Origin: Acidobacteriota bacterium
GTDB taxonomy: Bacteria > Acidobacteriota > Terriglobia > Acidiferrales > UBA7541
Direction: 5' to 3'
NCBI GenBank assembly: GCA_003225315.1
Contig: QHZD01000017.1
Coordinates: 186,001-250,000, forward strand
Length of the DNA: 64,000 nucleotides
In this document: positions 19,018-24,053 of the stretch, one piece after another
Numbering within the stretch: the first letter of the stretch is position 1
Layout of the letters: every line of letters starts with the position of its first letter
Translations under genes and position numbers: made by a program
The notes under the pieces: generated by a model
Told to the model about the DNA's origin: nothing
The model's input: only the letters and a program-made list of their open reading frames with translations
The model's database searches: none

Positions 19018-20103
19018 CTACCAGCCGAAGATTTTGCTGGCTCCGTAGACCAAGGCCAGCGTAAACCCCGCGATCACCACTTCTCCGATCGCTCCCACCG
19101 CGAACGGCCGCAGACCCTGCTTGCGCATCTCGCTAAAATTGGTGCGCAGTCCAACGCCCGCAAATGTCAGCAAAAAAGCCCAGCGCGAAAGATTGGCAAG
19201 CGCTCCGACTTGGTCCTTATTGAAAAAGTGATACGTCGCAAGCACCGAGATCAGCAGGAAGCCGAGCACGAACTTGGGGAATTTCTGCCACAGAAACTTG
19301 GCCTTGTTCCCTACTTCTTGCGCCTGCCCTTTGCTGGCCCAGTAGATAGCATAAGCGAGCACCACGAATCCAATCATAGCGTTCCGCGTGGACTTCACCA
19401 GCACGGCGAGTTTGCCGGCAGCATCTGAATAGAGCGCTCCCGCAGCTGTCGCTTCCGCCGTATTGTCCACGCCAAGACCGGCCCACAGGCCATAAGCGCG
19501 GTCGCTAAGATGGAGAGCATGCCCAATCAACGGAAACGTGAAGAGCGCCAGCGCGCCAAGCGCGAGAATCGCAGCGATAGAAAAGGAAGAATCTTCGTCG
19601 TCGGCTTCAATGGCGCCTTTCGTGGCGATGATCGCACTGACGCCGCACACCGCCGAGCCGACCGCAAGCAGCGTCGTAAGTTTGGGCTTGAGCTTGAACA
19701 ACCTGCCGAGAAAGGTCATGAACGCAAGCGAGCCGGCGATTTCGATGGCCACAAGAACGAGACTCACTCCGCCCAGCTTCAAAATGTCGCCCAACAGAAA
19801 ACGCGAGCCGAGCAGCACGATCCCCGCCTTCAGCCAAAATTCATAGGTAGCGACGCCCGTTCGGAAAATCTCCGGAACTCCGACCGTGTTGGAAATCAAG
19901 AGGCCGAGAACGATAGCCCACAGGACGTATTCGATGTTCGGAAATGTCCAGTGATGGGCCTTAGCGAAGGCGCCGACGTTTTGCTCCAGCAATTTGCCTG
20001 CGTACCCGACGCCGGCGAGCAATAGCACGCCGGGAATGACTCGCAGGAATCGCAACGCCGGTCGTACCTGCTGAACTTGTCGAACCGTAAGGACATCAGC
20101 CAT
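19018..20103 (-). CDS. YeiH family putative sulfate/sulfite transporter
   Basis: This is a 361-residue polytopic membrane protein with about ten spans and the family motifs VLWAIVLGLLISNTVG, FWLKAGIVLLGSRFLLGD, AVGSAVCGVSAIIATKGAI and GLGVDNTAEATAAGALYS. It belongs to the UPF0324/YeiH family, members of which have been described as sulfate exporters. It is the last gene of the sulfite reductase operon. A small membrane gene lies 29 bp upstream, and GGAGA precedes its ATG. The context supports a sulfur oxyanion substrate. Direction of transport is not known. Confidence 0.87.
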   Translation of the reverse strand: MADVLTVRQVQQVRPALRFLRVIPGVLLLAGVGYAGKLLEQNVGAFAKAHHWTFPNIEYVLWAIVLGLLISNTVGVPEIFRTGVATYEFWLKAGIVLLGSRFLLGDILKLGGVSLVLVAIEIAGSLAFMTFLGRLFKLKPKLTTLLAVGSAVCGVSAIIATKGAIEADDEDSSFSIAAILALGALALFTFPLIGHALHLSDRAYGLWAGLGVDNTAEATAAGALYSDAAGKLAVLVKSTRNAMIGFVVLAYAIYWASKGQAQEVGNKAKFLWQKFPKFVLGFLLISVLATYHFFNKDQVGALANLSRWAFLLTFAGVGLRTNFSEMRKQGLRPFAVGAIGEVVIAGFTLALVYGASKIFGW

Positions 20104-20282: not shown

Positions 20283-21059
20283 CTAACTTACCGACCTGCG
20301 TTCACCAGACGGATCTCTTCGATTCCGGTCCCAAAACGACGCGCTGATTTCCGCAACATCGCGCGACGCCACACGGCCGACAATCAACAAAGCCGGGGCC
20401 GGAAGTCTTTCTTCGCTCGCAAGCCGCGCAACGCTCGACCACCGCACTTGCTGCTCGAAACCACTGGCGCGCGAGACGATCACGCACGGAAGGTCCGCCG
20501 GCAGCCCGCCCGCCAGCAATCGATCGGAAACTTCCGCGTAATCCGCGCCGGGCATGTACAGAACAAGCGTGGTGGTGCTGGTAACGCATCCCCAGTCCAT
20601 CACGCTGCCGTCGCTTCCCCGTGAAAACGTTGTAAAGAGGATTTGTGAAGCTACCCGGCGATCCGTCAGCGAAATTCCTGCTGTTGCTGCAGCACCCAGC
20701 GCCGCGCTAATGCCCGGAACGATTTCGTATTCAATTCCGGCTTTGCGAAGCGCTTCGATCTCTTCCCCTGCGCGCCCAAAAATCGTCGGGTCTCCGCCCT
20801 TCAACCGGACGACGGTCTGGCAGGTCTGCGCATAGGAAACCAGCAGCGAGTTGATTTCATCCTGCGTAAGAAGTTTCCGCCCGGCGCGCTTGCCAACGTT
20901 GATCACCTCAGCAGCGGGCGAAATCAAGGCCAGGACACCATCGCTGACGAGCGCATCGTGCAGAACCACGTTGGCGGCAGCCAGCAAGCGCGCCGCTTTC
21001 AAGGTGAGCAGTTCGGGATCGCCCGGCCCCGCTCCAACGAGATAGACCTTGCCACTCAT
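20283..21059 (-). CDS. cobA: uroporphyrinogen-III C-methyltransferase (SUMT)
   Basis: The start at 21059 overlaps the sulfite reductase stop by ATGA. The 258-residue single-domain methyltransferase has KVYLVGAGPGDPELLTLKA (SAM-binding P-loop-like motif) and the signatures VRLKGGDPTIFGRAGEE and VPGISAALGAAATAGISLTDR. It methylates uroporphyrinogen III twice to precorrin-2. There is no fused CysG dehydrogenase/ferrochelatase half. The product is the precursor of sirohaem, the cofactor of the enzyme encoded immediately upstream, so the pairing is functionally coherent. Confidence 0.94.
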   Translation of the reverse strand: MSGKVYLVGAGPGDPELLTLKAARLLAAANVVLHDALVSDGVLALISPAAEVINVGKRAGRKLLTQDEINSLLVSYAQTCQTVVRLKGGDPTIFGRAGEEIEALRKAGIEYEIVPGISAALGAAATAGISLTDRRVASQILFTTFSRGSDGSVMDWGCVTSTTTLVLYMPGADYAEVSDRLLAGGLPADLPCVIVSRASGFEQQVRWSSVARLASEERLPAPALLIVGRVASRDVAEISASFWDRNRRDPSGERRSVS

Positions 21060-22822
21060 GCCATGCATTCTCCACGGCCGAGCTTCAACGAATATGTTTC
21101 CGTGTCTCCCCAATCCACGAAGAGATCCTCAGTGGCGCTGTTAACTTCAGCCAACGGGCGGAGGCGCTCCTTAATGGTTGCGTCCGGCGTGCGCGTCACC
21201 CACGCGGAAAATGTTTCCGCCGGTTGCCGGTCCGCCTGGTAAAACGCCAGCAGTTCGCGGATAATCGCGGGGATTGGCCGCGCCGGTACGGACATGATTT
21301 GCCTGCCAAAGCGCACCCCATCAGCATTCACTTTCCCGCCCAGCAAAAGTTGGTAGTAGGGCGCTTGCCGTTCACCAACTTTCCTGACGTTGCCGTAGAA
21401 TCCGATGTCGGCAATATGATGGTGCCCGCAGGAATTGGGGCAGCCGCTGATCTTGATGCGCAGCTTTTGGATTTCTGGATCGCTGTATCCATCCAATTCG
21501 CGGGAAAGCACGTCGGCTAGCGTCAACGAGCGTGTGATCCCGAGGTTGCAAGTAGTCGCTCCCGGGCAGCCGGTGACGTCGGAGATAGTACGCGCTCCGG
21601 GCGTAGCGAGGTCCAGTGCGCCAAGCTGGTCGTAAATCGCGCGCACACGGTCAAAAGGAACCCATGGAATGACAAGATCCTGATTGACGGCAATCCGCGC
21701 GCCCGTCAGTTCGTTCTTTTCCAAGACATCCGCAAGCCCGCGCATTTGATTGCTGTGGAACGTCCCAGCCGGCAGCTTGATCCACACCGCGCCGTATCCC
21801 GTCTGCCGTTGAGACATCAGGTTGTGCTCCGCCCAGCGGTCGTACTCGGGATCGTTCTGCGTTTCCGTCGCAGGTGACAAACATGCCGCCGCGATCGTGA
21901 CCAGTGCAGGCCGGATAGGTGTAGGCACGGTGAAAACTTCCGCAGGAGCCTGCGAGAATTTGCGCTTCTCCGCCACCAGGCGGCGAAACTCCTCGATTCC
22001 CTTTGCGCGCAGAACGTACTTCAGTCGTGCCAGCAGTTTGTTCTTGCGATTCCCCGTTTCCGTGAAAACGCGCAGGACAGCCTCAATGGTCGGGAGCAGT
22101 TCTTCCTCGGGCAGAAAGTCCGTCAGGACCGCGGCCTCCGTGGGCAAGCTTCCCAGCCCACCGCCGACAAGGACTTTGAATCCGCGTCGCGAAGTCCCGT
22201 TGTTGCCACGGACTTGCGCGATGAGTCCCACGTCATGGATTCCCGCCACGGCGCATGCGCCATCGTCCTCGCAGCCCGAAAACGCAATCTTGAACTTGCG
22301 CGGCAAGTCGTGAAAATCGGGATGCCGAAGGAGATATCGTGAAACTCCCAAAGCGTACGGCGTAACGTCGAACGCTTCGCCAGGGCAAATCCCTGCCACC
22401 GGACAGGCCGTGACGTTGCGCACGGTGTTCCCGCAAGCCTCGCGCGTGGTCAGTCCCGCATCAGCCAACAGGCGCATCGCCGCGCCTACATTTTCAAGCT
22501 TCACAAAATGGAATTGTACGTTTTCACGCGTGGTGAGGTGCCCGCGCCCTGTCGAGTACTCGTCCGCAATGTCCGCCAGGACGCGAAGCTGCGCAGGTTT
22601 CAACACGCCCGCCGCGATCTTGACGCGCAGCATTTGGAATCCCGGCTGTCGCTGGCCGTACGTGCCGTGCTTCAGGCGAAAAGGCCGGAATTGCTCCGCC
22701 GTAATGGCGCCGCTTTGTAGTTGTCGCGCACGCTCTTCAAAACGCACGATTTCCGCTTCGATGGCTTCGCGGCTGTGCCGCTCTTCGACTTCCGCTATAG
22801 CCGTTAATTCCGTCACACTCAT
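21056..22822 (-). CDS. sirohaem [4Fe-4S] sulfite (or nitrite) reductase, ferredoxin type
   Basis: This is a 588-residue hemoprotein with the duplicated NIR/SIR layout. The first half has GHLTTRENVQFHFV and NVTACPVAGICPGEAFD. The second half has the cluster cysteines CPGATTC (419-425) and CPNSC (461-465), four residues that hold the coupled sirohaem-Fe4S4 centre. It performs a six-electron reduction. Sulfite and nitrite enzymes of this family look alike. Sulfite is favoured because the leader encodes a cysteine-rich peptide and a YeiH transporter follows. It is the first enzyme gene of the operon with cobA. Confidence 0.92.
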   Translation of the reverse strand: MSVTELTAIAEVEERHSREAIEAEIVRFEERARQLQSGAITAEQFRPFRLKHGTYGQRQPGFQMLRVKIAAGVLKPAQLRVLADIADEYSTGRGHLTTRENVQFHFVKLENVGAAMRLLADAGLTTREACGNTVRNVTACPVAGICPGEAFDVTPYALGVSRYLLRHPDFHDLPRKFKIAFSGCEDDGACAVAGIHDVGLIAQVRGNNGTSRRGFKVLVGGGLGSLPTEAAVLTDFLPEEELLPTIEAVLRVFTETGNRKNKLLARLKYVLRAKGIEEFRRLVAEKRKFSQAPAEVFTVPTPIRPALVTIAAACLSPATETQNDPEYDRWAEHNLMSQRQTGYGAVWIKLPAGTFHSNQMRGLADVLEKNELTGARIAVNQDLVIPWVPFDRVRAIYDQLGALDLATPGARTISDVTGCPGATTCNLGITRSLTLADVLSRELDGYSDPEIQKLRIKISGCPNSCGHHHIADIGFYGNVRKVGERQAPYYQLLLGGKVNADGVRFGRQIMSVPARPIPAIIRELLAFYQADRQPAETFSAWVTRTPDATIKERLRPLAEVNSATEDLFVDWGDTETYSLKLGRGECMA

Positions 22823-22861
22823 AAATCCGTGGCCCCCAAATTTCTCGGCACTGAAAATTTC

Positions 22862-22912
22862 CGCTCCAAAAACAAAAAGCCCACGATGCCTAGGTCTCTG
22901 GCACGTGGGCTT
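22862..22912 (-). terminator. leader intrinsic terminator (attenuator) before the sulfite reductase gene
   Basis: On the minus strand a hairpin with arms AAGCCCACG/CGTGGGCTT, extended by TGCC/GGCA with one bulged base and a 9-base loop, is followed at once by TTTTTGTTTTT. It ends about 40 bp before the reductase ATG and after the small cysteine-rich frame, so it lies inside the operon leader, not behind a gene. Leader bases 22958-22965 and 22968-22973 are complementary to its ascending arm and loop (22895-22902 and 22900-22905), giving possible alternative pairings. Positions may be off by one base. Confidence 0.75.
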
Positions 22913-22936
22913 CGGAACTCTATGATTCAGCTACCG

Positions 22937-23032
22937 CTAAGTCCGGAAACTCCTCTGGCCAGAGATGCGTGCCTTGCGACACGCAGCGTTACACGCGCAA
23001 CAGCAACACATCATCTGGCAACAGGTCTTCAT
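22937..23032 (-). CDS. cysteine-rich leader peptide of the sulfite reductase operon
   Basis: A 31-codon frame starts at ATG 23032 with MKTCCQMMCCCCACNAAC. Eight cysteines fall at residues 4, 5, 9-12, 14 and 18. It then runs RKARISGQRSFRT to a TAG. The predicted transcription start is about 0-3 bases before the ATG, so it would be read from a leaderless or nearly leaderless mRNA. Its end is about 24 bases before an intrinsic terminator. The arrangement is that of amino-acid attenuators: ribosomes short of Cys-tRNA would stall on the Cys run and change folding of the leader. Cys-rich upstream frames are known ahead of cysteine genes in mycobacteria. I know of no described acidobacterial case. 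Confidence 0.75.
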   Translation of the reverse strand: MKTCCQMMCCCCACNAACRKARISGQRSFRT

Positions 23033-23040
23033 GAAGCTAA

Positions 23041-23070
23041 AGAATACTTTCCCTTGCGCTCCCCTGTCAA
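23041..23070 (-). promoter_or_regulatory. consensus promoter of the sulfite reductase operon
   Basis: Read on the minus strand, TTGACA (23070-23065) is separated by 18 bp from TATTCT (23046-23041). The predicted start point falls at about 23034-23032, at the ATG of the Cys-rich leader frame. The -35 is a perfect match, and no other promoter of this quality lies between here and the reductase gene. Confidence 0.65.
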
Positions 23071-23137
23071 AGGGAAGCTCTCCACAAAGATTAGATGCAC
23101 CGCATTCAAAAAAGTAATCAATGAAAAGCAACAATTA

Positions 23138-23944
23138 TTAGGGCTTAGAACCTTCCCCGCCCGGCGCAATCAGGGTGGCGGTCTTAATGGAATCCAGCTT
23201 TGGAAAATACTTGTCCACATAGGCTTTACCCAGTTGGGAGATTTTGTCCTGCTCCGGGCCGGAGCTCTCGGTGTATTGGTCGTACAGCATTTCGACCACG
23301 TTCATCCCTTTGCCATCGACAACCCCAAAGGGCGCGAAGCCCTGCCGGTCCAGCTCGGCGTTGTCCTTCAAATTGATGAAGATCTGCGTCGACCGCGTAT
23401 TGGGCAAGCTCGTCTTTGCGTACGTCAGGTAGCCGCGCTTGTTGGACTGGATAACCGGCTCGTCCTGAATATTGGCATTGTCCCATGCCGCCGAAATCGG
23501 CGGATACGCGCTGATCCCGAATTGCACCACGAAGCCGGGCACCACGCGGAAAAAGCTGCCGTTGTCATAAAAATGGTGCTTCACCAGGTTGTAGAAGCGG
23601 TCCGCGCCGATGGGCGCCCACGCACGGTTCACCGTCACTGTGAAATCACCACGCGTAGTCGTGAACTTCACGTGAAACTTCTCCGGAGCCGTGTCTTTGA
23701 GCAGCGCAGGGCGAAGCAATGCGCGGTCAAAACCCTTGCGCGGCGCTTCCGCTGGAGCGTTCGCCGTTGCCTCCGGCAGTGCCGCAGGCGCCGCCGGGGC
23801 CGGTGTCTCCACTTTTGGCGTGGCAGGAGCCTCCGCTTTGGGCTTTTCCGGCGGCTGCGTTTCGGCGGTCTGCTCTTTCGCCTTGCATCCGAAAATCAAT
23901 GTTCCCACCGCTACAACGGCAACGAACCAATTCACTCGTCTCAT
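23138..23944 (-). CDS. cyclophilin-type peptidyl-prolyl isomerase lipoprotein
   Basis: I chose the ATG at 23944, which gives a type II signal with lipobox LIFGC near residue 20. A Pro/Ala/Glu-rich linker (about 25-75) resembles other envelope lipoproteins. The cyclophilin domain spans about 90-260 with TTRGDFTVTVNRAWAPIGADRFYNLV, FYDNGSFFRVVPGFVVQFG and TQIFINLKDN, followed by FAPFGVVDGKGM. It should catalyse prolyl isomerisation at the inner face of the outer membrane or in the periplasm. The domain is slightly divergent from the usual FHR motif (FFRVV). No operon partner is evident. Confidence 0.88.
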   Translation of the reverse strand: MRRVNWFVAVVAVGTLIFGCKAKEQTAETQPPEKPKAEAPATPKVETPAPAAPAALPEATANAPAEAPRKGFDRALLRPALLKDTAPEKFHVKFTTTRGDFTVTVNRAWAPIGADRFYNLVKHHFYDNGSFFRVVPGFVVQFGISAYPPISAAWDNANIQDEPVIQSNKRGYLTYAKTSLPNTRSTQIFINLKDNAELDRQGFAPFGVVDGKGMNVVEMLYDQYTESSGPEQDKISQLGKAYVDKYFPKLDSIKTATLIAPGGEGSKP

Positions 23945-24053
23945 TTTCGAATATCCCCCTATCAAGCTGCTGGAAAACCAAGTTTGTCATTCTGAGAACC
24001 CCGGCTCGGTCGGGGCCTGAAGAACCTTAGCTTCAAATGTCGCAGACACGTAT

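Follow-up and report, generated by a model that had tools for sequence, protein, structure and literature searches.

A candidate cysteine-responsive attenuator on a near-leaderless transcript upstream of a NirA-type reductase gene in an acidobacterium

A short reading frame with eight cysteine codons, followed by an intrinsic terminator, precedes a probable sulfite reductase gene (here called sir) in the 64,000-nucleotide stretch of acidobacterial DNA that we analysed (the window). Does this leader sense cysteine? The original prediction proposed a cysteine attenuator, and that reading is supported by conserved parts, alternative pairing and recurrence at other sulfur genes, while the cysteine response itself remains inferred. 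We consider it very probable that the sir leader is a cysteine-responsive, ribosome-mediated transcription attenuator on a leaderless or near-leaderless transcript. Start, translation, stalling and cysteine response are all inferences, as there are no expression data.

In the proposed mechanism, RNA polymerase would start at or beside the leader ATG, where a ribosome would initiate without a Shine-Dalgarno site and follow the polymerase. With sufficient Cys-tRNA, the ribosome would arrive at the stop codon and cover the last leader codons, and the terminator would form before sir. When Cys-tRNA is scarce, it would stall on the Cys codons. Taking the ribosome front edge as 16 nt past the P site, even a stall at codon 18 would leave this edge close to the first position of the conserved RNA (22967). 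The leader tail, left free, could then pair with the loop and 5' arm of the terminator, and RNA polymerase would continue into sir and the sirohaem gene.

With the classical trp, his, thr and leu attenuators of enterobacteria, the mechanism has in common leader codons for the pathway product, a terminator and a competing antiterminator. Translation of those leaders begins at a Shine-Dalgarno site located some distance from the start of the RNA, whereas the sir leader would be translated from, or from directly beside, the 5' end. Nearer likenesses are found among other Cys leaders. In mycobacteria, leaderless Cys-rich uORFs precede cysA2, Rv0485 and nirA (Shell 2015, PMC4633059), with cysteine-dependent regulation of translation (Canestrari 2020, as described in PMC9031893). 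These polycysteine sORFs and the acidobacterial leaders are alike in being short Cys-rich frames before a NirA-type reductase gene and a sulfurtransferase gene, placed at or close to the 5' end of the RNA (in the acidobacterial case as inferred from promoter spacing), the latter being cysA2 in mycobacteria and a rhodanese gene in the acidobacterial genome. They differ in phylum and in output: translation attenuation is described for mycobacteria, where the Cys codons stand at the C-terminal end and no obvious terminator follows, while the Cys codons of the sir leader end well short of its stop codon and an intrinsic terminator with an antiterminator is present. Cys codon runs, likewise found by comparison, also occur in actinobacterial leaders before cys operons or cbs, but without conserved terminators, and Rho-dependent termination was suggested there (Seliverstov 2005, PMC1262725). 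A predicted Cys-codon attenuator that does have an intrinsic terminator is the uORFC-8-2 motif before cysS of Rhodobacterales (PMC8632094). It has two tandem Cys codons, targets cysteinyl-tRNA synthetase and is described from alphaproteobacteria only; the sir leader has no Rfam match.

The acidobacterial leader would combine a mycobacterial-like leaderless start with a terminator and antiterminator, joining leaderless translation to classical attenuation, and it extends to a regulon. Within the open-licence literature we found no report of cysteine attenuation in Acidobacteria. Attenuators have been predicted in phyla such as this one, almost none with an associated function (Naville and Gautheret 2010, PMC2965389). 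One predicted acidobacterial attenuator now has a testable function, which points to an attenuation-run cysteine regulon in an abundant soil phylum.

The leader frame, its predicted promoter and the genes behind it

All features of the locus given here lie on the minus strand. The reductase (588 aa, 21056-22822) belongs to the NIR/SIR family (Pfam NIR_SIR). As the best NCBIfam models, the NirA family first (261.7 bits, cut-off 523), remain below cut-off, sequence alone cannot decide between sulfite and nitrite. The Cys leader supports the sulfite role that the sequence families leave open. The end of the reductase gene is overlapped by a gene for uroporphyrinogen-III C-methyltransferase of sirohaem synthesis (20283-21113; TIGR01469 and NF004790 above cut-off). 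Operon membership is uncertain for the YeiH-family transporter gene (19018-20103; PF03601 above, TIGR00698 below cut-off), which is separated from the methyltransferase frame by 179 nt.

The leader frame MKTCCQMMCCCCACNAACRKARISGQRSFRT (22937-23032, 31 codons plus stop) carries its eight Cys codons, as had been claimed, at positions 4, 5, 9, 10, 11, 12, 14 and 18. Cys thus makes up 8 of 31 codons, and codons 4-18 (22979-23023), the proposed stall region, contain all of them, with enrichment confined to this frame. The last Cys codon is codon 18 of 31. The ATG (23032-23030) indeed begins 8 nt past the -10 hexamer. The sigma-70-like promoter had been called perfect, which is correct for the -35 hexamer TTGACA (23065-23070) and overstated for the -10 hexamer TATTCT (23041-23046), which matches at 4 of 6 positions. 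The pair scores 10/12, with an 18-nt spacer and a predicted RNA 5' end at 23034-23032. A promoter scan of 22000-24000 returned 2 sites compared to 0.5 (sd 0.7) in shuffled sequence. An Rfam search of 22500-23500 detected no riboswitch, T-box or other leader, the best match being at chance level (16.2 bits, cut-off 70, E 0.45).

In a single scan of named genomes, relatives of the reductase turned up at 71 loci, many of them in 'Acidobacteria gp2' metagenome assemblies. Absence of a Cys-rich frame or terminator from related acidobacteria would have refuted the prediction. The opposite was found: a short upstream frame with at least 3 Cys in 12 residues is present at 24/24 acidobacterial loci with a reductase at least 64% identical (L001 and L004-L026 in our locus numbering), and the terminator at 17/17 of the closest ones. 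The alignment of these 17 leaves out L016, whose leader layout differs (reductase 77% identical), and L075-L094, which repeat named loci. All 17 share a Cys-rich frame of 32 codons without indel, a terminator with U tract, and a promoter made up of TTGAC, a spacer of 17 or 18 nt and TANNNT exactly 8 nt before the ATG. The leader frame, in which codons for the pathway end product are enriched in every relative as expected of an attenuator, contains 5-8 Cys, other frames 0-2. Diversity per codon position amounts to 0.17-0.25 in codons 2-22 and drops to 0.013-0.026 in codons 23-31. Since the latter are near-invariant at all positions and the former variable, a function of the tail at the RNA level is suggested.

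Cys-dense frames are otherwise rare. When loci L001-L074 were cut into 250-nt blocks on both strands, 23 of 3942 blocks held a short frame with at least 5 Cys in 12 residues, and in 20 of these 23 the block was the one immediately 5' of sir. The same tiling of the window gave 0/510, because a block boundary splits the sir leader itself.

Start of the transcript and the repeat around the -35 hexamer

The near-leaderless start had been thought unusual for an attenuator. The spacing from promoter to ATG on which it rests is conserved in 17/17 relatives, although no 5' end has been mapped. In an earlier study of three acidobacterial genomes, 9.7-19.4% of genes are predicted to be leaderless (PMC3160421), so that such a start is not exceptional in the phylum. 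Consistently, mean anti-Shine-Dalgarno pairing is only -3.4 kcal/mol before the leader ATG versus -6.8 kcal/mol before the sir ATG (17 sequences each). At 37 of 41 Cys leaders a TANNNT lies 6-9 nt ahead of an ATG, GTG or TTG start, compared to 5.4% of 2886 control frames. These leaders, 23 from the genus and 18 from the class, stem from 24 and 20 loci, respectively, and several of the genus loci are training sequences of the covariance model R1 described below. Fourteen further genus or own-genome loci (ids L187-L214) were omitted, eight as repeats and six as non-Cys or weak own-genome matches. A leader with several possible starts has more chances of a match than a control frame with one.

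The -35 hexamer lies in the loop of an inverted repeat of unknown role (23058-23078). Its arms vary between relatives, and each genome's own arms pair better than swapped ones (-12.8 versus -9.3 kcal/mol, 0/20000 permutations) in 16 sequences, from which L004 was excluded as nearly identical to the window. Slid arms gave no own-versus-swapped effect. Because the relatives are not independent, 0/20000 should not be read as a real probability, and for half of these relatives the own arm falls outside the best three. Just upstream of the repeat there is a second conserved block, ATTACTTTTTT...TGCATCTAAT (23118-23090). The repeat may be a 3' hairpin in the mRNA of the upstream isomerase gene, it may serve as an operator, or it may indicate that transcription enters from upstream.

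The last possibility leads to the alternative that survives best, namely that the transcript starts further upstream and is not leaderless, the repeat being a 5' UTR hairpin and TTGACA/TATTCT merely part of the RNA. Attenuation would still be possible. The better pairing of own arms, its absence in slid arms and the second conserved block all speak for such a start. They are outweighed by the promoter-like arrangement that all 17 relatives keep, by the weak anti-Shine-Dalgarno pairing at the leader ATG and by the -10 element at 6-9 nt in other Cys leaders as well. The sense strand, in addition, shows no clear folding advantage over its complement (p 0.08), and the repeat may instead belong to the isomerase mRNA, since 17/17 relatives share this upstream gene. 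We therefore regard an upstream start as unlikely, without being able to discard it.

Terminator, antiterminator and the output step

The terminator predicted before the reductase gene is present as a GC-rich hairpin (AAGCCCAC...GTGGGC, 22868-22912) followed by a U tract that ends 45 nt before the sir ATG. It rests on the local fold (z = -3.9) and the alignment of relatives. A simple terminator scan did not list this hairpin, owing to its loop limit of 8. Within the last leader codons, near-invariant at all codon positions, lies the putative antiterminator 5' strand (22939-22965), whose segments TCTGGC and GGAGTTTCCGGACTT pair with GCCAGA and AAGTTCCGAAGCC in and 5' of the terminator. The 3' strand (22897-22921), supported by alignment, folding and a duplex test, overlaps the terminator 5' arm and its loop (GCCAGA). 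Two pairing segments had been proposed, of which the pair TCTGGC (22963-22958) with GCCAGA (22902-22897) holds up: 17/17 relatives keep GCCAGA and CTGGC unchanged, and the first T of TCTGGC is A in one. The other, 22968-22973, varies among relatives and was rejected as an antiterminator strand; the better conserved pair is 22953-22939 with about 22920-22907.

Folding of the leader RNA with a ribosome, suggested as a check, gave a divided answer. RNA lacking the terminator 3' arm folds with -22 to -30 kcal/mol in 17/17 relatives, and in each of the four structures inspected (L001, L012, L014, L022) the antiterminator is what forms before that arm exists. In equilibrium folding of full-length RNA with ribosome masks, by contrast, the terminator is favoured, with a probability near 1, in most of the stalled positions modelled. 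Values below 0.7 were obtained only at codon 14 in L006, L009, L010 and L015, at codon 10 in L013 and at codon 18 in L015. Equilibrium folding is therefore not used as evidence for the switch. As the terminator wins at equilibrium even with a stalled ribosome, the switch must be kinetic. Kinetic control is usual for attenuators.

The alternative pairing was also examined by comparison. Our script finds a terminator at 26 of 29 leaders tried (none at L019, L099 and L117). Against shuffled tails, the tail pairs better with its own terminator arm at p < 0.05 in 16 of these 26 loci; the remaining 10, with p of at least 0.05 in this test, include the cysD leader of the window genome (p 0.56). The combined p is 1.5e-16 for the 26 loci, 4e-16 for the 25 that remain after L113, for which a misplaced hairpin had been used, is excluded, and 4e-13 for the 16 among the latter that do not belong to the R1-type family. 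Column-wise covariation in 14 cysD leaders showed no antiterminator pair changed on both sides and one such terminator pair. It is weak because every strand takes part in two helices and is almost invariable, and arm-swap tests were accordingly used in its place. In a set of 17 loci, from which L113, L120 and seven more R1-type family members were omitted, own arms pair with -23.5 kcal/mol and swapped arms with -16.0 kcal/mol (0/20000 permutations), with four of the 17 (L021, L095, L098, L112) no better than their swaps.

These data bear on a second alternative, in which the same Cys sensor acts on translation, through access to the sir start, or on termination by Rho, to which stalling would expose the RNA; the hairpin would then be incidental. 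The closest studied leaders would favour it, because the mycobacterial leaderless Cys uORFs are described as acting on translation (PMC9031893 and PMC13236596), and the actinobacterial Cys leaders lack conserved terminators (PMC1262725). Against it, a U-tract terminator is present in 17/17 relatives, most of the unrelated leaders tested (the 26 of 29 found by script) have terminators that differ in sequence, and the arm-swap test shows a match between tails and the arms of their own terminators. These findings render such an output improbable, and we retain transcription attenuation as the preferred reading.

A shared RNA core before other genes

To ask how far this type of leader extends, we turned to loci of the cysD/cysH family (PF01507), of which 20/30 were found by script to carry a Cys-rich frame (at least 3 Cys in 12 residues) followed by a terminator. 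L133, missed by the script on account of a short U run, has leader and hairpin on inspection. The window genome contains a second Cys leader of this kind, MTSIQLTGVCCCPHPTVTAAAYCLDGKPAF (contig C17, L135/L186), before a gene named cysD by NCBIfam. From 21 sir and cysD tails with their terminators we built the covariance model R1, which begins ten codons before the stop codon; three of the 21 training rows hold one Cys codon each, the others none. In the window genome R1 retrieves sir (E 3.9e-16), a rhodanese gene (3.0e-11), cysD (4.2e-6) and an aspartokinase gene (1.3e-4). The rhodanese, a two-domain sulfurtransferase, is preceded by a third Cys leader, MSMFTQKNAPLCICCMCYMRVSSGAERLSF (C49, L185), and aspartokinase by MMTPTAKRITSKSSMSIISTTTKKTISASGAWRNT (C50, L187), a Thr-rich leader with the same RNA core. 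Weaker matches lie before genes for DAHP synthase (E 0.10; C51, L189), ilvD (E 1.7; C39, L190) and an unidentified protein (E 0.07). As side observations at weak model scores, a candidate aromatic leader with YRWYRFTW stands before the DAHP synthase gene and an I/V leader with IVDSIVVRII before ilvD. At the L188 match (E 0.07) no matching leader is present, and it may be a terminator only. A poly-Cys DNA pattern was uninformative by itself in this genome (39 matches, 38 for the reversed control pattern).

R1 matches 36/36 genomes of the genus at E <= 0.1. Four of them (G007, G010, G034, G035), all without the reductase, have a single match, located before aspartokinase. Across the class, 49 of 151 sampled genomes, in 28 of 72 genera, match at E <= 0.01. 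At 20 new loci outside the genus (L222-L241; R1 matches without a locus were excluded), a frame ending inside R1 with at least 3 Cys in 12 residues was present in 18, as against 1.9% of 4000 control windows. The two others precede asd, assigned by eye, and ilvD, where L241 has a V/L/I leader. Behind the 18 Cys leaders, with assignments by Pfam where tested and otherwise by eye, are genes for reductases, rhodanese, sirohaem synthase, TauE/SafE, SrpI type 2A encapsulin, TonB-like, porin and FadL proteins, and one unidentified protein.

Among these, encapsulin, transporter and outer-membrane genes are flagged as possible parts of a cysteine-shortage response. At L232, L233 and L237, a Cys leader with the R1 core lies 427-592 nt upstream of an SrpI type 2A encapsulin gene (Pfam/NCBIfam for L232, by eye for the others). 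Cys leaders also precede genes for outer-membrane proteins of the TonB-like, porin and FadL types (L224, L225, L226, L231), whose control is not certain; these targets possibly serve the uptake of sulfur compounds.

Of 20 genus regions at weaker R1 matches, 17 are aspartokinase loci (L242-L254 and L258-L261, in addition to L187 of the window genome), and 17/17 of their leaders are Thr-rich by eye; the other regions include one cysD. Codon sensing predicts such a combination of Thr codons and shared core before aspartokinase, and these leaders are probably Thr/Ile attenuators. In our estimate the balance tips slightly towards a modular near-leaderless attenuator in the class, in which a shared RNA core of tail and terminator is kept and the sensor codons have been swapped from pathway to pathway, for Cys and Thr and perhaps for aromatic and branched-chain amino acids. 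It would serve above all a cysteine regulon including sulfurtransferase, TauE/SafE and SrpI encapsulin genes, and it would match mycobacteria in leaderless sensor and two target types while differing in the output step.

The exchange of codons also weighs against the Cys-rich peptide itself being the effector, for instance by binding metal or sensing redox, instead of its codons sensing Cys-tRNA. Cys-containing copper-sensing uORFs provide a precedent, Cys-rich peptides can bind metals, and the Cys pattern is similar within the genus. Between lineages, however, peptide sequence, Cys number and Cys spacing differ freely, the same core occurs with Thr-rich leaders before aspartokinase and with a V/L/I leader before one ilvD, and the targets of Cys leaders are mostly sulfur genes, so that a peptide effector appears very improbable compared to codon sensing. 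Finally, chance could have placed a Cys-rich stretch next to the ordinary terminator of the isomerase gene upstream, given that short frames are common and that this gene runs in the same direction. Such a reading is refuted already by conservation, and further by recurrence and the block, window and arm-swap controls.

Outside the core family the picture is patchier. Of 48 more distant loci (L027-L074), five had no upstream DNA; among the 43 scored, at least 5 Cys in 12 residues occur upstream in L031 (Anaerolineales), L045 (a Flammeovirgaceae MAG) and L048 (the cultured Flexithrix dorotheae DSM 6795), with little or no Cys enrichment in the remainder. The 3-4 Cys found at weaker loci, L044, L066 and L068 among them, may have arisen by chance. 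Nine further loci of the class (L095-L103) comprise L095, L096, L098 and L099, with 3, 5, 7 and 4 Cys, and five without a frame of at least 3 Cys in 12 residues within 700 nt. Among 20 stretches upstream of reductase matches (L104-L123), five have at least 5 Cys (L111, L112, L113, L117, L122) and four have 4. In genus members without the window's type of reductase (L122/L218, L215, L221), a related Cys leader stands before a different NIR/SIR-type reductase gene, and the L122 leader has a related tail.

The Cys leaders at some more distant sir genes are unrelated to the window leader. In the Bacteroidota loci L045 and L048, sir is preceded by a leader of very high Cys density, MNCFNNCCCNCCCCCEIQQLKEGFIRTD in Flexithrix dorotheae, that has a terminator of its own, and at L045, the one of the two that was tested, the leader tail pairs with its terminator arm.
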